From positions 1-19,290 of the forward strand of contig JACMKH010000085.1 in the NCBI GenBank assembly GCA_014380205.1: a stretch of DNA of 19,290 nt. Direction: 5' to 3'. The translations under genes and the position numbers were made by a program. This DNA comes from Sphingomonadaceae bacterium. GTDB lineage: Bacteria; Pseudomonadota; Alphaproteobacteria; Sphingomonadales; Sphingomonadaceae. The notes under the pieces are model-generated. The model saw only the letters and a list, made by a program, of their open reading frames with translations, did not search any database and was not told where the DNA came from. Shown piece after piece: positions 1,102 through 14,471 of this stretch. Position 1 is the stretch's first letter. Every line of letters begins with the position of its first letter.

Positions 1102-1896
1102 ATGTCCGCCCCCGAAATGACCTACGCGCGCTATCTCGCGCTCGAGCCGCTGCTCGCCGCGCAGCACCCGATCTCCGATGTGCACGACGAGAGCCTGTTC
1201 ATCATCATTCACCAGACCAAGGAGCTGTGGCTCAAGCAGATGCTGCTCGAGCTTCGCCACGCGATCGATCTCGTCCGCGACGACGAGCTCACCCCCGCCT
1301 ACAAGACGCTCGCGCGGATCAGCCGCATCCAGGCGGTGATGACCTTGTCGTGGGACGTGCTCGCGACGATGACCCCGACCGACTATACGCGCTTTCGCGA
1401 CGTGCTCGGCACGAGCTCGGGCTTCCAGTCGGCGCAGTTCCGCACCTTCGAGTTCATGCTCGGCCTCAAGGACGCCTCGCACCTCAACCACCATGCCGAG
1501 GATCCCACCGCGCAGGCCATGCTCCGCGCCGCGCTCGACGCGCCGAGCCTGTGGGACGAGGCCAATCGCGCGCTCGCCCGCGCCGGCTTCGACCTCCCGC
1601 TCCACGCGATCGAGCGCGATTGGAGCGAGCCCTACGAACCGAGCCCCGTGGTCGAGGCCGCCTGGGCCGAGGTCTATCGCGACACCCCGCGCTGGTGGAG
1701 CCTATACCAGCTTGCCGAGAAGCTCGTCGACACCGACGACGCGATGGCCACCTGGCGACACAAGCACGTCGTCACTGTCTCGCGGATCATCGGCGGCAAG
1801 CGCGGGACGGGCGGGACGCCGGGCGTCTCCTACCTCCAGTCGACCTTGGCGAAGCGCGCGTTTCCCGAGCTGTGGAGCCTGCGCACGCTGCTCTGA
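1102..1896 (+). CDS. kynA: Tryptophan 2,3-dioxygenase
   Basis: Haem-dependent cytosolic enzyme that opens the indole ring of L-tryptophan with O2 to give N-formylkynurenine, the first step of the kynurenine pathway. The family signatures are clear: IIIHQTKELWLKQ with the distal-pocket His37, SGFQSAQFRTFEF in the substrate pocket, and WRHKHVVTV with the proximal haem ligand His222. These are followed by the glycine-rich loop GGKRGTGGTPGVSYL that closes over the substrate. At 264 residues it has the compact bacterial length. The ATG at 1102 is the only reasonable start, because an in-frame TAA lies at 1090-1092. No clear Shine-Dalgarno sequence is seen. The PhoD-like gene follows after 17 bases, so the two are probably cotranscribed. 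The usual partners kynB and kynU are not in the window. Confidence 0.95.
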   Translation: MSAPEMTYARYLALEPLLAAQHPISDVHDESLFIIIHQTKELWLKQMLLELRHAIDLVRDDELTPAYKTLARISRIQAVMTLSWDVLATMTPTDYTRFRDVLGTSSGFQSAQFRTFEFMLGLKDASHLNHHAEDPTAQAMLRAALDAPSLWDEANRALARAGFDLPLHAIERDWSEPYEPSPVVEAAWAEVYRDTPRWWSLYQLAEKLVDTDDAMATWRHKHVVTVSRIIGGKRGTGGTPGVSYLQSTLAKRAFPELWSLRTLL

Positions 1897-1913
1897 CCAC
1901 GGGAAAGGCCGCC

Positions 1914-3518
1914 ATGACGCTTCACATCGACCGCCGCGCGCTGATCAAGACCGCTGCATGGGGTATCGCGGCGATCGCCACACCCGGCGTGGCGCAGCTT
2001 CTCGCGGCGCGCGGCTTCACCCACGGCGTCGCCTCGGGCGAGCCGGGCGCGAACAGCGTGCTGCTCTGGACGCGTTTTGTCGCGGCGGGCGAGACCCAGC
2101 TCGGCATCGAGCTTGCCGCGGATGCCGAGTTCGGCAGAATCGTCGCGAGAGGCGAGGCGACCGCCGATCCCGAGCGCGACTGCACCGCGCGCGCGACGGT
2201 CCACGGCCTCGCCCCTGATCGCTGGTATTTCTACCGCTTCACCGCGCCCGACGGATCGCGATCCCCCATCGGCCGCACGCGCACGCTCCCCGAGGGCATG
2301 CCGCAGCGCTTCGCGCTCGGCGTCTTCTCCTGCGCCAACCTCCCGTTCGGCTGGTTCAACGCCTATGCGCACGCCGCCGCGCGCGACGACCTCGATCTGA
2401 TCGTCCATCTCGGCGACTATCTCTACGAGTATCCGCGCGGCCGCTATCCCGAGATCGCGCAGGCGCTCGCCGGCCGCGTCATCGAGCCCGCGAGCGAGAT
2501 CGTCGCGCTCGCCGACTATCGGCTGCGCTACGCGAGCTATCGCGCCGATCCCGATCTCGCCGCGCTCCACGCCGCCTACCCGATGATCGCGATCCCCGAC
2601 GATCACGAGTTCGCCAACGACGCCTGGGCGGGTGGCGCGCAGAACCACCAGCCCGAGGAGGGCGACTGGGCGGTGCGCAAGGCGGCCGCGATCCGCGCGC
2701 ACCGCGAGTGGCTGCCGATCTCGGACGGAAGCTGGGCGCGCTACCGGATCGGCGGCCTCGCGACGCTGCACAGGCTCGAGACGCGCGCGACCGCACGGAT
2801 GGAGCAGCTCAACTATTCCGCCGTGTTCGGCCAGCCGGGCGACATCGCGGCGGGCCTGCGCGATTTCCGCGACGGCGTCTGGTCCGATCCGGCGCGTACC
2901 TTGCTCGGCACCGCGCAGGAAGCCTGGCTCGCCGAGGGACTGCGCGGCGACACACGCTGGCACATCCTCGCGCAGCAAGTCATCATGGGCACCGTCAACG
3001 CCGCGCCCGAGACCGAGGCCATGCTCGCCGGCGCGCCCGAGGAGGTTCGCGCGCGCGCGGGGGCGCTGATCGCCGCCGCCCGTGCGGGGTTGCCGCTCAA
3101 CCTCGACGCATGGGACGGCTATCCGGCGGCGCGCGCCCGGCTGCTCCGCGCCTCGCTCGAAGCCGATGCCGACCTCATCGTCCTCGCCGGGGACAGCCAC
3201 AACGCCTGGGCGTTCGATCTCGCGCACGAGGGCGCGCGCGCCGGCGTCGAGTTCGCTGTCCACAGCGTCACCTCCCCCGGCTTCGAAGGCTTCCTCCCCG
3301 CCGCCGCGCCCGCCGACGTCGCCGCCTCGCTGATCGGCGCGAGCCCCAACCTGCGCTGGGCCGACACCGCGGGGCGCGGCTATATGACGGTGACACTGAC
3401 CCCCGACGAGGCGCGCGCGGAGTGGCTGTTCCTCGACACGGTCAGGGAGAGGTCAACTCGGCTCGCAAGGCGGCATTCGCTCGCGGCGCGGCACGGCGCG
3501 CGGGCGCTGGCCGCATAG
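1914..3518 (+). CDS. PhoD-like alkaline phosphatase/phosphodiesterase, Tat-exported
   Basis: Metallophosphoesterase of the PhoD family (534 residues), expected to release phosphate from phosphomono- or diesters in the periplasm. The N-terminus has a twin-arginine motif (DRRALIK, Arg7-Arg8) and a hydrophobic stretch ending near AAR, so export by the Tat pathway is likely. A PhoD N-terminal beta-domain follows (GVASGEPGANSVLLWTR), then the catalytic domain with metal-binding motifs FSCAN, HLGDYLYEY, IPDDHEFANDAW and VLAGDSHNAWAF. The frame stays open far upstream through kynA, but the ATG at 1914 is preferred. It sits behind GGGAAAGG (1901-1908) and directly precedes the Tat signal. It probably forms an operon with kynA, a pairing with no obvious metabolic logic. 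The inverted repeat after the stop may end the transcript. Confidence 0.9.
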   Translation: MTLHIDRRALIKTAAWGIAAIATPGVAQLLAARGFTHGVASGEPGANSVLLWTRFVAAGETQLGIELAADAEFGRIVARGEATADPERDCTARATVHGLAPDRWYFYRFTAPDGSRSPIGRTRTLPEGMPQRFALGVFSCANLPFGWFNAYAHAAARDDLDLIVHLGDYLYEYPRGRYPEIAQALAGRVIEPASEIVALADYRLRYASYRADPDLAALHAAYPMIAIPDDHEFANDAWAGGAQNHQPEEGDWAVRKAAAIRAHREWLPISDGSWARYRIGGLATLHRLETRATARMEQLNYSAVFGQPGDIAAGLRDFRDGVWSDPARTLLGTAQEAWLAEGLRGDTRWHILAQQVIMGTVNAAPETEAMLAGAPEEVRARAGALIAAARAGLPLNLDAWDGYPAARARLLRASLEADADLIVLAGDSHNAWAFDLAHEGARAGVEFAVHSVTSPGFEGFLPAAAPADVAASLIGASPNLRWADTAGRGYMTVTLTPDEARAEWLFLDTVRERSTRLARRHSLAARHGARALAA

Positions 3519-3550: not shown

Positions 3551-3763
3551 CTACAGCCTCTCGGTCAGCTCCGGCACGATCTTGAACAGGTCGCCGACCA
3601 GCCCGATGTCGGCGACCTGGAAGATCGGCGCGTCCTCGTCCTTATTGATCGCGATGATCGTCTTCGAATCCTTCATCCCCGCGAGATGCTGGATCGCGCC
3701 CGAGATGCCCACGGCGATATAGACCTCGGGCGAATCTTGCCAGTCTGCCCAATCTGGTAGTCG
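3551..3763 (-). pseudogene. Truncated, frameshifted copy of the etfA 3' end
   Basis: This segment is a direct repeat of the 3' end of the intact etfA at 5015-5231. The match begins exactly at the stop codon (CTA on the + strand at 3551 and 5015). Over the first roughly 182 bases I count about ten mismatches. On the minus strand they give only three conservative amino acid changes (R/K, V/I, V/I), the rest being synonymous. A 4-base deletion near 3733 then breaks the frame. The match continues more weakly (the peptide [10 protein letters not shown] is still readable) to about 3763 and is lost beyond. The pattern says this was once part of a selected etfA gene, probably from a related strain or an older allele, and is not a fresh duplication. 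It has no start, promoter or FAD domain beginning and cannot be functional. Confidence 0.88.
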
Positions 3764-3820
3764 CTCTCCAAGTGCCGCCCGGCCCGCGAACTGTGAAAAC
3801 CAGCTAGTTGTGCAACGGGC

Positions 3821-3847
3821 CTATCGACCGCCGCTTTTAGTCGATAG
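3821..3847. promoter_or_regulatory. Perfect palindrome upstream of the YaaC-like gene
   Basis: CTATCGAC (3821-3828) and GTCGATAG (3840-3847) are exact inverted repeats separated by 11 bases, ending 27 bases before the ATG at 3875. The position fits an operator for a dimeric repressor or a hairpin in the leader of the acquired gene. I see no convincing -35/-10 pair, and no regulator gene is nearby. The rest of 3764-3874 is non-coding and AT-richer than the flanks; apart from this palindrome and the ribosome binding site I see nothing in it. Confidence 0.4.
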
Positions 3848-3874
3848 ATTGAAAATTTCCATGGGAGCCAGCCG

Positions 3875-5011
3875 ATGAAGTTGCCGCCCGTCAGAGAAGG
3901 CACGAAACTCCTCGTCAAAGGGAAGCGGGTGCCCTTCACCTACTGGCCCACATACCAGGGTCCTACAAGAGAGGGCCTCCAGTGGACCGTCTTCGCAAGC
4001 GATCCCTGGTTCTTGATTGAGACCTCGCTTTTGACCCTCCCAACGGCAGCGCGGGAGCAGGCAAGCGCCTTTCTCATTCAGGCTAGAGATTTCTTCAGGG
4101 CAGCCACAGATTCTCACATATCGGCTGCAAAACCACTGCTACTTTACTATTCCTTTCTAAATCTCGCGAAATGTTATGTCGTTAAGCAGCAAAACGCCCC
4201 TATTACGGGCAGGGTAGAGCACGGCCTATCTGAAAAACTTCCGACTACGCCCGGCGCCATACACGGAGATGTTCATGTCCTGAGAAATAAGGATACGGTT
4301 AGCGCTTTCGCAATGTTTTCAAGAGCGATAGGAGCTTCCCTTCCGGTTGCCAATGCCGCAAATCAGGTTGCATCTCTGCGCTCACAGGATTTTCTCGCGC
4401 AGATACTTGTCGGGCATAGGCTTTGGTGCCGAGCCGACAACAATCGGAAGGAACGGTTTATCAGTCTTCGGACATTGCGATATCGATATAACTATGATGA
4501 CCAAGAAGTATGGATTGCCGCCGACGTTTTCAAGGACGACCTCACGAGGTTTGGATACACCCAACAAGAGGTAGCTAACGCCTTCGGGTCCTCCATTCCC
4601 TTTCGGAATGTGGCGTCAGAACTTGAGGTCGATAAAAGAGCGGTTGTCAAATACGAAATGATTAACGTTGTAAATTATCCGAACCGTCCATCCGAGTGCT
4701 TGGCGGACCTCTCGATAGCGCTCAAGTCGCGTCTATGGCGAAGCGTTACTATGGATCATCCCTTTAGAAAATATTATGTTTATCTGCCGACATCAGCTCA
4801 GATTTTGCTTCATCAGTTGCAATCCCTATATATTGCAACCTATTATTTTGGCTCCATCACTCGTTATAAGCCCGTGGCATTTTCGGAAATTCTCCGATCC
4901 CCAATAGGGCCGTTTGTAAATGAATTCTTTACAAACCAGCCAGCCCAGTTCCTCTATTTAATGGCATCTGAATTTGTGGAGCAGGAAATTACGAGAGCGG
5001 CGATCGCGTAG
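3875..5011 (+). CDS. YaaC-like protein of unknown function (acquired gene)
   Basis: A 378-residue soluble protein without signal peptide or membrane span. From memory it resembles the YaaC family, whose function is not established: the central segment [17 protein letters not shown] and the C-terminal [14 protein letters not shown] are the parts that suggest it. No catalytic motif is obvious. The ATG at 3875 is supported by GGGAG at 3863-3867 with a 7-base spacer. Base composition is visibly AT-richer than the neighbours, with codons such as ATA, TTA and AGA that the core genes here avoid, which indicates horizontal acquisition. It sits between the intact etfA and a decayed copy of the etfA 3' end. 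Its stop codon is only three bases from the etfA stop, so the two genes converge with no room for a terminator. Confidence 0.7.
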
Positions 5012-5014
5012 CTC

Positions 5015-5944
5015 CTACAGCTTCTCTGTCAGCTCCGGCACGATCTTGAACAGGTCTCCGACCAGCCCGATGTCCGCGATCTGGAAGATCGGCGCGTCCT
5101 CGTCCTTGTTGATCGCGATGATCGTCTTCGAATCCTTCATCCCCGCGAGATGCTGGATCGCTCCCGAGATGCCGATCGCGATATAGACCTCGGGCGCGAC
5201 GATCTTGCCGGTCTGGCCGACCTGATAGTCGTTGGGAACATAGCCCGCGTCGACCGCCGCGCGGCTCGCGCCGACGGCCGCGCCGAGCTTGTCGGCGAGC
5301 GGCTCGATCAGCGCGTGGAAATTCTCCGAATTCTGGAGCGCGCGCCCGCCCGAGACGATGATCTTGGCGCTGGTCAATTCGGGCCGCTCGGACTTGGCGA
5401 GCTCCTGGCCGACGAAGCTCGACAGGCCCTTGTCGCCCTCGCCCGAGACATTCTCGATGGTCGCCGATCCGCCTTCGGACGCCGCCTTGGCGAAGGCGGT
5501 GCCGCGCACCGTGACCACCTTCTTCGCATCCGACGATTGCACCGTCGCGATCGCGTTCCCCGCGTAGATCGGCCGCGTGAACGTGTCCGGGCTCTCGACC
5601 GAGAGGATATCGGAAATCTGCATCACGTCGAGCAGCGCGGCGACGCGCGGCGCGATGTTCTTGCCCGTGGTGGTCGCGGGGACGACGAAGGCGTCGTGAT
5701 GGCCCATCAGCCCCGCGATCAGCGGCGCGACATTCTCGGCGAGGCCATGGTCGTAGGCCGGATCGTCGGCGACATGAACCTTGGCGATACCCGCGATCTT
5801 CGCCGCCGCCTCGGCGACGCCACCGACGTTGCTTCCCGCGACGATCGCGTGGACCTCGCCGAGCTCACCCGCCGCGGTGACCGCAGGCAAGGTCGGATCC
5901 TTGAGCGCGCCGCCCTCATGCTCGACCCAGAGAAGAACGCTCAT
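5015..5944 (-). CDS. etfA: Electron transfer flavoprotein subunit alpha
   Basis: Alpha subunit (309 residues) of the soluble ETF heterodimer, which carries electrons from acyl-CoA and other dehydrogenases to ETF:ubiquinone oxidoreductase. The C-terminal FAD-binding domain is intact: VSGGRALQ, then [22 protein letters not shown], and [17 protein letters not shown] followed by [16 protein letters not shown]. The start ATG (complement of 5942-5944) overlaps the etfB stop by four bases, so translation is coupled. The 3' end is duplicated at 3551-3763 on the far side of the YaaC-like gene. The present last 215 bp may therefore be either original or delivered with that insertion. No terminator lies between this stop and the convergent YaaC-like gene. 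Confidence 0.97.
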
Positions 5945-6687
5945 GCGACGACTCCCAATGCCTTGAGCTTGCCGATCAGCGCGTCGACATCGGCGACCTT
6001 CTCGCCCGCTTCGCGCTTCGAAGGTTCGACCACCTTGAGCGTGGTCAGCCGCGGCGACACGTCGACGCCGTAGTCGGCGGGGGTCTTGTTCGCGAGCGGC
6101 TTGTTCTTGGCCTTCATGATGTTGGGCAGCGAGGCGTAGCGCGGCTCGTTGAGACGCAGATCGGTGGTGACCACGGCGGGCGTGTTGAGCTTGACCGTCT
6201 GGAGTCCCCCATCGACCTCGCGCGTCACGCTGACGCTGCCTTCCTCCATTTCGACCTTCGACGCGAACGTCCCCTGCCCCCAGCCGAGCAGCGCGGCGAG
6301 CATCTGGCCGGTCTGGTTCGAATCGTCGTCGATCGCCTGCTTGCCGAGGATGATCAGCCCCGGCTGCTCCTCATCGGCGACGGCCTTGAGCAGCTTGGCG
6401 ACACCGAGCGGCTCGACATCTTCGGCCTCGATCAGGATCGCGCGGTCGGCGCCCATCGCGAGCGCGGTGCGCAGCGTCTCGGTCGCCTTGGCCGGCCCGA
6501 TCGACACCGCGACGATCTCGCTCGCCGCGCCCTTCTCCTTCAGCCGGATCGCCTCTTCGACCGCGATCTCGTCGAAGGGGTTCATGCTCATCTTGACGTT
6601 GGCGAGATCGACCCCGCTGCCGTCGGCCTTGACCCGCGGCTTGACGTTGTAATCGATCACCCGCTTGACCGCGACGAGAACCTTCAT
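5941..6687 (-). CDS. etfB: Electron transfer flavoprotein subunit beta
   Basis: Beta subunit (248 residues) of ETF, which binds AMP and docks the dehydrogenase partners. It starts with the typical [19 protein letters not shown], and shows [18 protein letters not shown] and the ETF-beta signature region [18 protein letters not shown], with a C-terminal arm that wraps the alpha subunit. It is the promoter-proximal gene of the etfB-etfA pair (overlap of four bases, 5941-5944). Upstream, a palindromic repeat (6719-6777) separates it from the 3' end of sucC on the same strand. Whether etfBA has its own promoter in this short gap cannot be told. Confidence 0.97.
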
Positions 6688-9294: not shown

Positions 9295-10884
9295 ATGCGC
9301 GAATTCTCGAAGCTGCTCGATGGGCTCGCCTACACGCGTTCGCGCAACGCCAAGCTCAAGCTGATCGCCAATTATCTCGTCGCCACGCCCGACCCCGATC
9401 GCGGCTGGGCGCTCGCGGCGCTGACCGGCGAGGTCGACATTCCGGGAGTCAAGCCGGCGGTGATCCGCGCGCTGGTCGAGGAGCGCTGCGATCCCGTGCT
9501 GTTCCGGATGAGCCGCGACTATGTCGGCGACACCGCGGAGACGGTATCGCTGATGTGGCCCAAGCGGCTCGACCAGCCGCCCGAGCTCGACGACGGCGTG
9601 CTCAGGGTCGCGGGCGTGGTTGAGCGGTTGATGACGCTTGGGCGGGTCGAGGCGCCGTCTGCACTCGCGACGATGCTCGATCATCTCGACGCCTCGGGGC
9701 GCTATGCCTTGCTCAAGCTCGCGACTGGCGGGCTGCGCGTCGGGGTCTCGGCGCGGCTCGCCAAAACCGCGCTCGCTCAGGCGTTCGGGCTGGATGTCGA
9801 TGCGGTCGAGGAGGTGTGGCACGGCATCGCGCCGCCCTATGCGCCGATCTTCGCCTGGGCCGAGGGTGGCGAGCAGCCGACCGCCGCGAACACGCCCGTC
9901 TTTCGCCCCTTCATGCTCGCCCACGCGCTCGAGGAGACGCGCGTCTCGCTCGACGATTTCGCGGCCGAATGGAAATGGGACGGGATTCGCATCCAGCTCG
10001 TCCATGCGGGCGGCGAGACGCGGCTTTACAGCCGCGGCGGCGACGACATCACCGGGAGCTTTCCCGAGGTCGCGGCGGCCTTCGCCGAGCCCGGCGCGCT
10101 CGACGGCGAGCTGCTCGTGCGCGGCGAGGCGCAAGGTGGAACGGAGGGTGGCGCGGCGAGCTTCAACGCGCTCCAGCAGCGGCTCGGGCGTAAAAAGGTA
10201 ACGGCTAAGATGCAGGCTGACTATCCGGCGTTCGTCCGGCTCTACGACATATTGTTCGATGGCGACGATGATTTGCGCGGGCTGGCGTGGGCCGAGCGGC
10301 GCAAGCGGCTCGAAGGTTTCGTCAAGCGACTGCCGCGCGAGGGCTTCGATCTCTCGCCGACGATCGACGCCGCAAGCTTCGAGGCGCTCGAGGAGCTTCG
10401 CGCGGGCGCGCGGGATGTGGCGATCGAGGGCGTGATGCTCAAGCGGCGCGACAGCCCCTACGTCGCGGGGCGCAGGACGGGGTTATGGTACAAATGGAAG
10501 CGCGATCCGCTCACCGCCGATTGCGTGATGATGTACGCCCAGCGCGGCAACGGCAAGCGCTCGAGCTATTATTCGGACTACACCTTCGGCTGCTGGACCG
10601 AGGCGGGCGAGCTGCTGCCGGTCGGCAAGGCCTATTCGGGGTTCACCGACGAGGAATTGAAATGGCTCGACCGCTTCGTCCGCAACGCGACGGTCAACCG
10701 TTTCGGCCCGGTTCGCGAGGTCGAGAAGACGCTGGTGCTCGAGGTCGCGTTCGATTCAATTCATGAATCGAAGCGGCACAAATCGGGGCTCGCGATGCGC
10801 TTTCCCCGCATCGCGCGCATCCGCCGCGACAAGCCCGCGGCGGAGGCGGATCGCATCGATACGCTGCGGCGGATGATCGCTTAA
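9295..10884 (+). CDS. ATP-dependent DNA ligase, bacterial cisplatin-damage-response type
   Basis: Joins DNA nicks through a lysyl-AMP intermediate. The protein (529 residues) has an N-terminal DNA-binding domain (about 1-200), an adenylation domain with motif I EWKWDGIR (catalytic Lys227), ELLVRGE (motif III region), EGVMLKRRDSPY (motif IV) and LWYKWKRDPL (motif V). A C-terminal OB-fold follows, with VLEVAFDSIHES and RFPRIARIRRDKP. Length and the opening MREFSKLLDGLAYT fit the family TIGR04120. That family is normally encoded beside a ligase-associated helicase, an exonuclease and a phosphoesterase; none is seen here on either side. The ATG at 9295 is chosen by homology over the GTG at 9229. 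A short match to its last codons recurs at 11820, beyond the AT-rich gene that follows. Confidence 0.93.
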   Translation: MREFSKLLDGLAYTRSRNAKLKLIANYLVATPDPDRGWALAALTGEVDIPGVKPAVIRALVEERCDPVLFRMSRDYVGDTAETVSLMWPKRLDQPPELDDGVLRVAGVVERLMTLGRVEAPSALATMLDHLDASGRYALLKLATGGLRVGVSARLAKTALAQAFGLDVDAVEEVWHGIAPPYAPIFAWAEGGEQPTAANTPVFRPFMLAHALEETRVSLDDFAAEWKWDGIRIQLVHAGGETRLYSRGGDDITGSFPEVAAAFAEPGALDGELLVRGEAQGGTEGGAASFNALQQRLGRKKVTAKMQADYPAFVRLYDILFDGDDDLRGLAWAERRKRLEGFVKRLPREGFDLSPTIDAASFEALEELRAGARDVAIEGVMLKRRDSPYVAGRRTGLWYKWKRDPLTADCVMMYAQRGNGKRSSYYSDYTFGCWTEAGELLPVGKAYSGFTDEELKWLDRFVRNATVNRFGPVREVEKTLVLEVAFDSIHESKRHKSGLAMRFPRIARIRRDKPAAEADRIDTLRRMIA

Positions 10885-10961
10885 GCGTGCGTTGATCGTG
10901 GTGTGGCGGGGAGTTGCCGTCTGTGATAACTCTTGGGACATGCTTCCATAAGGAATGGGTC

Positions 10962-11774
10962 ATGACAGCTAACGATAGCTATACCCTCTGGGACATATTC
11001 AACGCGGGGTGGTTCAGCGTGCTGATGGGTTCACTCATCGGGATTTTAGGCATAACGCTAGCGATTATATTTCATTTTCGTGCTAGACAGATTGCTCGAT
11101 TATATTATTTAGTGGGCGATAATCTGCTTATATGGCCAAAAGAGGATCGTCACGACGATGGATTGGAAATTCGTTGCGATGGAATAGTGGTTCCAAGAGT
11201 AACATCTACAAGTTTTGGGATTTGGAATTCTGGAACAACAACCATTCAGGGGCAAAGCATTGTAGATAGTGATAGACTGAGGTTGGTATTAACAAAGGGA
11301 GGGCAAATACTACGTGCAACTATCACAAGCTTCACCAGAGATGTTAATGGATGCAGCATAAAAATTGTAGACGGCGATGCGTGCGAGCTGCATTTTGATT
11401 TTCTTGATCCTGGGGACGGGTTTTCGGTTCAAATTGTACACTCTTCTAGTATGAAATCATTGGAACCTATTGGCACTATTATGGGATTACCACAAAGTGT
11501 TATGCCGTTCAAACTCAATCCAATAGGTAGATTCTTTGATTTTGTCATCTTCGCTGTACCGGTCTTATTCGGTTTATTATTTTTAGGCACATCAATATAT
11601 CTGTCGCTTAGCCTAGCTTTTCCTTGGAAACTGATACCAATGCTGGTACTATTCATATCAATAGCCGGACCGATTGTTATGCTTGTTTATACACCCGATG
11701 CAACTACGCCACCGAAAATTCGCGGTGTACCAACGGAAATTGCCGCTGACCCAGTGTTGCGCGGTTTTCGTTGA
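10962..11774 (+). CDS. Membrane-anchored protein of unknown function (acquired gene)
   Basis: A 270-residue protein with an N-terminal membrane span (about residues 16-38, VLMGSLIGILGITLAIIF), a polar, probably beta-rich domain (about 45-175) and two strongly hydrophobic C-terminal spans (about 190-250). The middle domain contains FGIWNSGTTTIQGQSI and FDFLDPGDGFSVQIVHS. I remember similar WNSG-T-I and LDPGDG patterns in uncharacterised membrane proteins but cannot assign a family. The ATG at 10962 has AAGGA seven bases upstream. Composition is the most AT-rich in the window, with frequent ATA, TTA and AGA codons, pointing to recent transfer. It lies between the DNA ligase and a short remnant matching the ligase 3' end. 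Confidence 0.75.
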   Translation: MTANDSYTLWDIFNAGWFSVLMGSLIGILGITLAIIFHFRARQIARLYYLVGDNLLIWPKEDRHDDGLEIRCDGIVVPRVTSTSFGIWNSGTTTIQGQSIVDSDRLRLVLTKGGQILRATITSFTRDVNGCSIKIVDGDACELHFDFLDPGDGFSVQIVHSSSMKSLEPIGTIMGLPQSVMPFKLNPIGRFFDFVIFAVPVLFGLLFLGTSIYLSLSLAFPWKLIPMLVLFISIAGPIVMLVYTPDATTPPKIRGVPTEIAADPVLRGFR

Positions 11775-11819: not shown

Positions 11820-11882
11820 ATCGGGGCACTGCGACGGATGATCGCCCGATTTGTCGCTTGCAAAAGCCAACCGCTCGAGTAG
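11820..11882 (+). pseudogene. Remnant resembling the DNA ligase 3' end
   Basis: Bases 11820-11845 match 10855-10880 in the ligase at 21 of 26 positions, including an identical 11-base core (CGGATGATCGC). Read in the same codon phase, both give LRRMIA, with synonymous changes in the Arg and Ala codons. In the remnant the frame continues for 11 more residues to TAG at 11880-11882, where the intact ligase stops at once. I read it as the displaced end of a ligase gene left behind when the AT-rich gene was inserted. The match is short, so chance cannot be excluded without comparison to relatives. Confidence 0.5.
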
Positions 11883-13510: not shown

Positions 13511-14404
13511 ATGAAGGGACTCGTTTTCAAGTCGGCGGTCGTCACGACCGCCGCGCTGCTCCTCGCCGGGACCGCGCTCGCGCAGAACGCGCGGCCGCTC
13601 GCGCCCGGCCAGTCGCGCAACGGGACGCTCAGCACGCGCAGCCCGATGATGACCGAGAACATCTACTATCTCGACCGCTACACGATCAGCGGCAGCGCGG
13701 GCGACCGCGTCGCGATCACGATGCGGTCCGAGAGCTTCGACACCTATCTCGAGGTCGGGCGGATGGAGGGCGAGAGCTTCAGCGTGCTCGGCTCGGACGA
13801 CGACAGCGGCGGCGAGCTCGATTCGCGGCTGGTCTTCACCTTCCCCGAGACGGACAGCTACATCGTGCGCGCGCGCACCTTCGGGGCCAATACGACGGGT
13901 GCCTACACGATCGCGGTCGAGACCGTGGCGCCTCCGGGGCCGCCGCCGCCGCCGACGCCGATCCAGGTCGGCCAGACCGTCGAAGGCAGCTTCACCGCCG
14001 ACAGCCCGAGCTACATGCCGAACGGCTACGAGGATTACGGCGGAGGAACGGGGCGGCATTACGCGCTCTACACGCTGACCGGCGCGGCGGGGCAGACCGT
14101 CACGGTGACGCTGCGCTCGACCGAGTTCGACGCCTATCTCGAGATCGGCGCCGACACGCCGCTCGGATTCGGCGTCGTCCAGAGCAACGACGACATGCCG
14201 ATGCCCGCCGAAGGCGAAGTGACGCCGGCCGTCGATCCCGAGATGATGGCGCACGACGAGCATGGCGAGATGGAGCATTCCGACTTCATCGGCACGCTCG
14301 ATTCGCAGATCCGCTTCACCTTCCAGAGCGCGGGAACGGTGATGATCCGCGCCACCACGCTCGCGAGCGACACGACGGGAGCTTATACGCTGAGCGTCGA
14401 GTAG
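13511..14404 (+). CDS. Secreted protein with two PPC-like domains
   Basis: A 297-residue exported protein with a signal peptide that ends near Ala24 (TALAQ). Two repeats of a bacterial pre-peptidase C-terminal (PPC)-like beta-sandwich follow, at about residues 34-137 and 152-297, joined by a proline-rich linker (139-150). Each shows the family pattern: FDTYLEVG with SDDDSGGELDSRLVFTF and TGAYTIAVE in the first, FDAYLEIG with LDSQIRFTF and TGAYTLSVE in the second. The second domain carries an extra Met/His/Asp/Glu-rich insertion at about 228-258. No protease domain is present, so it is not the tail of a peptidase in this form; a periplasmic or surface adhesion or binding role is inference. The start has GGGAGA five to six bases upstream. 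A strong terminator follows, so it is probably monocistronic. Confidence 0.85.
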   Translation: MKGLVFKSAVVTTAALLLAGTALAQNARPLAPGQSRNGTLSTRSPMMTENIYYLDRYTISGSAGDRVAITMRSESFDTYLEVGRMEGESFSVLGSDDDSGGELDSRLVFTFPETDSYIVRARTFGANTTGAYTIAVETVAPPGPPPPPTPIQVGQTVEGSFTADSPSYMPNGYEDYGGGTGRHYALYTLTGAAGQTVTVTLRSTEFDAYLEIGADTPLGFGVVQSNDDMPMPAEGEVTPAVDPEMMAHDEHGEMEHSDFIGTLDSQIRFTFQSAGTVMIRATTLASDTTGAYTLSVE

Positions 14405-14411
14405 TTAGCAG

Positions 14412-14446
14412 AAGGCCCGGCTCACTGTTCGTGGGCCGGGCCTTTC
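14412..14446 (+). terminator. Rho-independent terminator after the PPC-domain gene
   Basis: AAGGCCCGGC (14412-14421) and GCCGGGCCTT (14435-14444) form a perfect 10-bp GC-rich stem with a 13-base loop, followed by a short T-rich tail. It starts seven bases after the stop of the PPC-domain gene. It is the clearest intrinsic terminator in the window. Confidence 0.8.
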
Positions 14447-14471
14447 ATTCACACCGAGTCCCTCCCCATCC

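Follow-up and report, generated by a model that had tools for sequence, protein, structure and literature searches.

A putative docking place for lone genes at the 3' end of etfA in Sphingomonadaceae

The analysed window is the whole 19,290-nt contig C198 (JACMKH010000085.1) of GCA_014380205.1, a metagenome-assembled genome of a Sphingomonadaceae bacterium with 498 contigs and a completeness of 87.6%. Its etfB and etfA genes run towards a convergent gene for a YaaC-family protein, beyond which lie a truncated second copy of the etfA 3' end (hereafter the orphan) and a long phoD-like ORF (Table 1). Only 3 nt separate the stop codons of yaaC and etfA, and continuous homology of the phoD-like ORF to its counterparts in the genus begins at about residue 223. 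The insert has a GC content of 0.46–0.54, while etfA and phoD have at least 0.65 (500-nt windows), in agreement with the initial annotation, which had described one AT-rich gene between two repeat copies. No tRNA or tmRNA gene was found in the window. The absence of an integrase or transposase, likewise noted from the start, was confirmed for the 19 ORFs, a subset of those in the window, that were scanned with Pfam.

Table 1. Features of the etfA locus, by position in the window
Feature	Position	Strand	Basis
phoD-like long ORF, flank past the orphan	1227..3518	+	PF09423 and PF16655
Orphan, truncated etfA 3'-end copy with stop codon and 4-nt deletion, without upstream gene	3551..3763	-	Repeat match; frame broken upstream
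Junction, orphan edge to yaaC start	3764..3874	.	Sequence, translation
Cargo gene yaaC, YaaC-family protein, 378 aa	3875..5011	+	PF14175
3' part of intact etfA duplicated in the orphan; within the gene's conserved last 285 nt	5015..5231	-	Repeat match
etfA, electron transfer flavoprotein alpha subunit, 309 aa	5015..5944	-	PF01012 and PF00766
etfB, outside the genus clade like EtfA	5941..6687	-	PF01012; tree

Both copies of the direct repeat start at the etfA stop codon on the minus strand. Positions 3551–3732 and 5015–5196 (182 nt, offset 1464) are 95% identical and differ at exactly 10 sites, where about ten mismatches had been claimed. The 4-nt deletion said to break the orphan is also present; when it is allowed for, the repeat extends to 3763/5231 with 91% identity over 217 columns, and a match with E of about 1e-81 to 1e-83 is not due to chance. 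Beyond the deletion, the orphan and the working etfA differ at 7 of 33 aligned nt. A weaker etfA likeness, judged by eye in the translation, can be followed past 3763, suggesting that the similarity may continue from the orphan edge to about 3800. A search of the genome's contigs returned only these two close etfA 3' ends. The uneven spacing of mismatches (10/182 and 7/33, Fisher p 0.007) was considered as a sign of a mosaic breakpoint in the orphan and set aside, decay being an equally good explanation. Third codon positions account for 12 of the 17 scored differences between the two ends, a bias with p 0.002 against one third and p 0.07 against one half (the half-decay model), which makes divergence during function somewhat more likely than decay in place.

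The YaaC-like identity first proposed for the cargo was borne out, as its protein scores 101.8 bits against PF14175 (gathering cut-off 27, E 6.1e-29). The gene has no PADLOC and no NCBIfam match, and the label of a defence gene was dropped for lack of the former; a profile search of the PDB returned no relative. It had no match in phage records or viral contigs, and on plasmids it matched three from Pseudomonas at 37% identity; a phage or plasmid origin was rejected. In genomes YaaC is rare: two of the 397 in the family have it, one of them with a weak match, and of the 385 in the class just the window's own does. A large, mostly metagenomic protein collection holds 567 relatives at E 0.001, the nearest of which (87–73% identity, with P0002–P0004 at 81–87%) are on short contigs, and a pattern-based scan of species genomes gave six YaaC loci. 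Repeats of the kind described here are absent at two other YaaC loci (Aureimonas L055, Erythrobacter L056). YaaC was also rejected as the driver of the arrangement because the other etfA cases carry different genes. YaaC terms returned nothing from the literature searched, which was partially covered.

These other cases came from a search, proposed in the initial annotation, for genes placed between etfA and a partial etfA copy. The last 236 nt of etfA were compared with 397 family genomes, at most two candidates being scored in each; 383 genomes gave a match and 53, the window's included, gave two, and 43 of the 53 were searched again with up to 18 candidates scored per genome. The second match is a whole second etfA copy in several of the 53 genomes, and in the nine that, the window's aside, were not searched again, the two matches are on separate contigs or far apart. 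We counted as a case any contig on which, within 2 kb, an intact etfA is accompanied by a single foreign gene and by a same-strand, truncated etfA 3' end. Such a contig is present in 4 of the 397 genomes, the window's and three more (G254, G012 and G105). As G012 and G105 belong to one genus (g4) and have their insert in common, the four genomes make three cases with three different cargo genes. The cargo protein is 298 aa long in G254 and 231 aa long in G012 and G105, encoded by one gene each in the same direction as etfA. Neither the G254 nor the G012 protein has a Pfam match, and both look secreted from their N termini, read by eye. The GC content of these inserts is 0.56–0.60 versus 0.66 in etfA.

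In all three cases an insert of about 0.7–1.3 kb holds a single gene and no recombinase. Counted from the stop, the orphans have their edges at about −219, −155 and −103 nt, which is not one crossover point, and decay at the 5' side of the orphans could have blurred them. An element of the integrase type is therefore not the preferred reading. The same anatomy with other genes in two related genera makes the etfA end look like a recurrent docking place for integrase-free single genes. Outside the case count, G369 has two partial etfA matches close together on one contig. Eight assemblies (G364, G316, G167, G362, G258, G357, G025 and G076; L187–L203) break inside the etfA 3' end; the partial ends at their contig ends, perhaps collapsed whole duplicates, were left out of the count, and given these breaks etfA gene-end copies may exceed those counted.

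Insert-free relatives indicate the direction of the event in two genera. Among the ten members of the genus of G254 (g7) that were searched, G359 has an etfA that passes straight into the flank found after the orphan of G254 (227 of 250 nt agree), and the sequence behind the working etfA of G254 does not align; hence the orphan occupies the place of the old end. Over the last 139 nt the working copy of G254 differs from G359 at 5 sites, and the orphan at 8 and by a 3-nt gap. In g4, with three members searched, the insert is absent from G166. G012 and G105 share the last 15 nt of their working etfA, and 7 of these 15 sites are different in G166; the corresponding part of the orphan differs from G166 at 2 in G012 and at 6 in the decayed orphan of G105. 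Over 102 nt the differences from G166 number 12 in the working copy and 6 in the orphan of G012, and 9 and 11, respectively, in G105. The direction in g4 thus rests on the G012 figures and the new ending common to both genomes, the G105 figures being unhelpful, and together these support the view that the 3' end came in with the insert. Homogenisation between the copies was considered and rejected, the two working copies differing at 5 of 102 nt and each from its own orphan at 9 and 13. The original proposal of an insertion at the etfA 3' end with the old end left behind thus holds for G254 and G012/G105; for the window we infer that the insert arose in the same way. The replacement of the host gene end, also proposed, is supported in g4 by the new terminal 15 nt of G012/G105.

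The surroundings of the window's etfA are unusual for its genus. In eight of nine congeners phoD is convergent with a beta-lactamase-family gene, the contig ending there in the ninth, and seven of eight congener etfA loci have downstream a gene that we assigned as SDR-like, a close relative of which is absent from the window's genome. In the relatives examined phoD and etfA are not neighbours, and the matches listed from a search of 298 family genomes include no phoD and orphan together or side by side. Since phoD replaces the usual etfA neighbour of the genus, the orphan sits at a rearrangement breakpoint. The contig joins three blocks (bla, TDO and phoD; etfA, etfB and sucC; the ligase gene onwards) whose genes are about 0.4–1 Mb apart in the single-contig congeners G001 and G005. 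None of the eight genus members with an etfA locus has a downstream partial copy, so that YaaC-free relatives carrying one, named at the outset as evidence against an insertion, were not encountered. The genomes compared include no insert-free close relative of the window's organism, and with the phoD flank this makes the age order of the window's two copies unreadable.

SucC and PhoD trees place the window's genome inside its genus. EtfB falls outside, although the neighbouring SucC falls inside, and for EtfA residues 1–247 the genus clade is rejected (AU p 0.007), which means that the separate history may cover more than the last 215 nt. Either etfBA was imported into the window's genome, or it was replaced in the other members of the genus. 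The 182-nt tree joins the window's two copies weakly (88/58, not starred) and so leans towards a recent duplication within the genome, the other finding that was to speak against an insertion, but AU tests on these last 182 nt (p 0.2–0.3) give no placement and do not decide between the two. At 24 columns that split the 8 genus members from 32 other sequences, the working copy has the state of the latter 18 times and the orphan 21 times, in a comparison biased by the selection of non-genus sequences for likeness to the window's copy.

In g7 the slot behind etfA can be followed through several species. It is closed by a DUF445 gene, 85–98% identical to that of G254 in eight of the nine others and 74% in G287. 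The slot is empty in G015, G217 and G169, where the DUF445 gene starts 90 nt past etfA; it holds two tandem genes in G377 and one gene in each of G339, G317 and G287, and G108 has a partial gene there. In G254 it is taken up by the cargo, the orphan and another ORF, which in G359 is present alone. The tandem genes of G377 (L260), at 149–964 and 1214–2047 after etfA, are of the secreted type and about 28% identical to the G254 cargo. In a non-random sample, compiled for other purposes, of 80 etfA copies followed by no less than 1 kb of sequence, 17 (G254 included) are followed by a member of the G254 cargo family on the same strand, starting 64–157 nt after etfA and with best-match identities of 24–37%. 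This number was obtained by removing five of 22 matches, those of G169, G217, G015 and G359, short ones that we took to lie antisense to the DUF445 gene, and the weak one of G004. Instead of gene swapping, a single resident gene may have diverged fast; the tandem pair and the orphan favour gain of genes. Two conserved genes enclosing cassettes that differ by lineage, the hallmark of a minimal mobile element, are found in g7 between species, not strains. The far flank of the window (phoD) is not conserved, unlike the slot in g7.

The end of etfA is well conserved. Among up to 41 family sequences, the non-genus ones picked for likeness to the window's copy, the mean identity to the consensus is 0.80–0.99 per 15-nt bin over the last 285 nt and 0.74–0.76 over the preceding 45 nt, where the ungapped counting of columns back from the stop may depress the figures. 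The conserved end could possibly serve as a recombination anchor for incoming etfA 3'-end pieces in most members of the family. A stretch of 33 nt at 5201–5233 (−219 to −187 from the stop) is nearly fixed, synonymous sites included; 40 other family sequences differ from the working copy at 0–2 of these nucleotides, and the orphan at 7.

A survey of gene ends covered 800 kb of G001, G254, G012, G359 and G005, cut into 40 stretches of 20 kb of which some overlap by 1 kb, with 648 ORFs of at least 120 aa; the four known cases, used as controls, were all recovered. None of the 648 ORFs gave a further case at another gene end, and a general process at gene ends was rejected on this ground. At 2 events or 3 genomes per 396 (window excluded) about 3 to 5 cases would be expected, so that etfA looks favoured, the numbers being small. 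One match was rejected as a case, being judged an intergenic hairpin-type repeat: it is a 115-nt hairpin-like sequence in G001 (L222), at 11058–11172 and 14348–14462, directly 3' of stop codons.

We consider it somewhat probable that the window is one instance of a recurrent docking slot for lone genes at the etfA 3' end, filled by a single homologous crossover. The incoming DNA would be a cargo gene, in the window that of the YaaC family, joined to a short etfA 3'-end fragment, and one RecA-type crossover in the conserved etfA end would insert it. The working etfA would then keep its own 5' part, gain the incoming 3' end and be followed by the cargo; the rest of the old 3' end, truncated where the incoming fragment ends, would remain as the orphan. 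The substrate of the crossover would presumably be circularised or end-joined DNA, of which neither a donor molecule nor a circle was observed. The reading draws on the shared anatomy of four genomes with three cargos and no recombinase in their inserts, on the insert-free relatives in two genera, on the position of the orphan beside the old flank in G254/G359 and on the new terminal nucleotides of the working gene in G012 and G105. In E. coli, according to PMC3240628, DNA homologous at one end gave gene-end duplications in 56 of 60 clones, of 109–950 bp in the 14 clones sequenced, which were explained by one crossover of a recircularised molecule. The orphans described here are about 100–220 nt long. 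Both sets of products contain a partial duplication of the homologous gene end, but the E. coli ones came from a laboratory construct with a selected marker, whereas those at etfA are natural and involve divergent sequences.

Homology-facilitated illegitimate recombination, in which a linear donor aligns through its etfA end and its far end is ligated, with no homology, inside the host's etfA 3' end upstream of the crossover, would also leave an orphan. It accommodates orphan edges that differ between cases, and PMC3240628 describes such reactions in naturally competent bacteria and, rarely, in E. coli. However, it reports that the true events of this type in E. coli, 4 of 60, gave deletions and attributes the duplications to single crossover; the joint would moreover have to fall upstream of the anchor every time, and we regard this route as unlikely. 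A still less likely origin of the window's orphan is the decay of a second etfBA operon, or of an in-genome duplication, down to its final piece. The 53 genomes with two etfA 3' matches, several of them whole second copies, and the weak clustering of the window's copies speak for such an origin, but the differences between the copies are concentrated at third codon positions, and in G254 and G012/G105 the insert-free relatives rule it out.

Some integrative elements enter protein genes at the 3' end, as phage 21/e14 does at icd. With such elements (SGI1 at trmE, phage 21/e14 at icd) the etfA cases have in common a working gene with a new 3' end and an old end that remains at the far side of the insert, and a remnant whose integrase acted inside etfA and was later lost could look alike. 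The etfA inserts differ in their one-gene cargo and in having neither a site-specific recombinase of their own nor a fixed crossover site; with no recombinase in any of the three, edges that vary between them and no phage or viral-contig relative of YaaC, a remnant of this kind seems very unlikely. Least credible is a chimeric contig, which the fragmented metagenome assembly, the distance between the contig's gene blocks in single-contig congeners and the differing ancestry of EtfA and EtfB versus SucC and PhoD would fit, but the same anatomy occurs in the G254 and G012 assemblies of about 10 contigs each, and copies that differ at 10 of 182 nt were not produced by a join at identical sequence.

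Among known systems, the minimal mobile elements of Neisseria reportedly go back to Saunders and Snyder 2002, and the insertion of restriction-modification genes with long target duplication to Nobusato et al. 2000. As described in PMC3082526, the former are different whole-gene cassettes between conserved genes, devoid of mobility genes, that enter via homologous recombination in the flanks. The etfA slot likewise holds different whole-gene cassettes and no mobility genes, and its conserved anchor and the anatomy of the orphan would fit homologous entry; it differs in the truncated anchor-gene end beside the cassette in four genomes, in its occurrence across genera and, in the window, in one flank that is not conserved. 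In the latter system, according to PMC3031569, direct repeats of a long target stretch lie on both sides of the inserted gene. A long direct repeat flanks the etfA insert too, although the terminal 15 nt of the working copy in G012/G105 are not of the target type. The etfA slot may therefore resemble a minimal mobile element in its working and an insertion with long target duplication in its product, departing from both. In the literature searched, partially covered, etfA is not mentioned as an integration site among the matches listed, and a search for hypervariable etfA in Sphingomonas gave only an unrelated paper.

The finding identifies a concrete place, used repeatedly, at which foreign single genes enter genomes of one bacterial family, and its signature, an intact gene, a lone gene and a truncated copy of the gene end, can be scanned for in any genome. 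If the single-crossover reading is right, an accessory gene on its own needs no mobile-element machinery to enter and uses only the conserved end of a core gene, and such docking is testable in the laboratory. It is conceivable, though doubtful, that the cassettes are also re-usable, looping out by host recombination as a circle with one etfA end and re-entering any etfA that is similar over its last few hundred nucleotides. A cassette of this sort would be an integrase-free mobile unit moved between genera by host recombination alone, and the conserved gene end its portable attachment site.

Elsewhere in the window, the ATP-dependent DNA ligase gene is followed by a lone AT-rich ORF (10914–11774, 286 aa) without Pfam or PADLOC match. 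A 17-nt piece of the ligase 3' end is repeated past this ORF (10864–10880 and 11829–11845, 16/17 identical), with a score reached by none of 1000 local shuffles and not striking in a looser whole-window test. It could be a small-scale case of the etfA kind.
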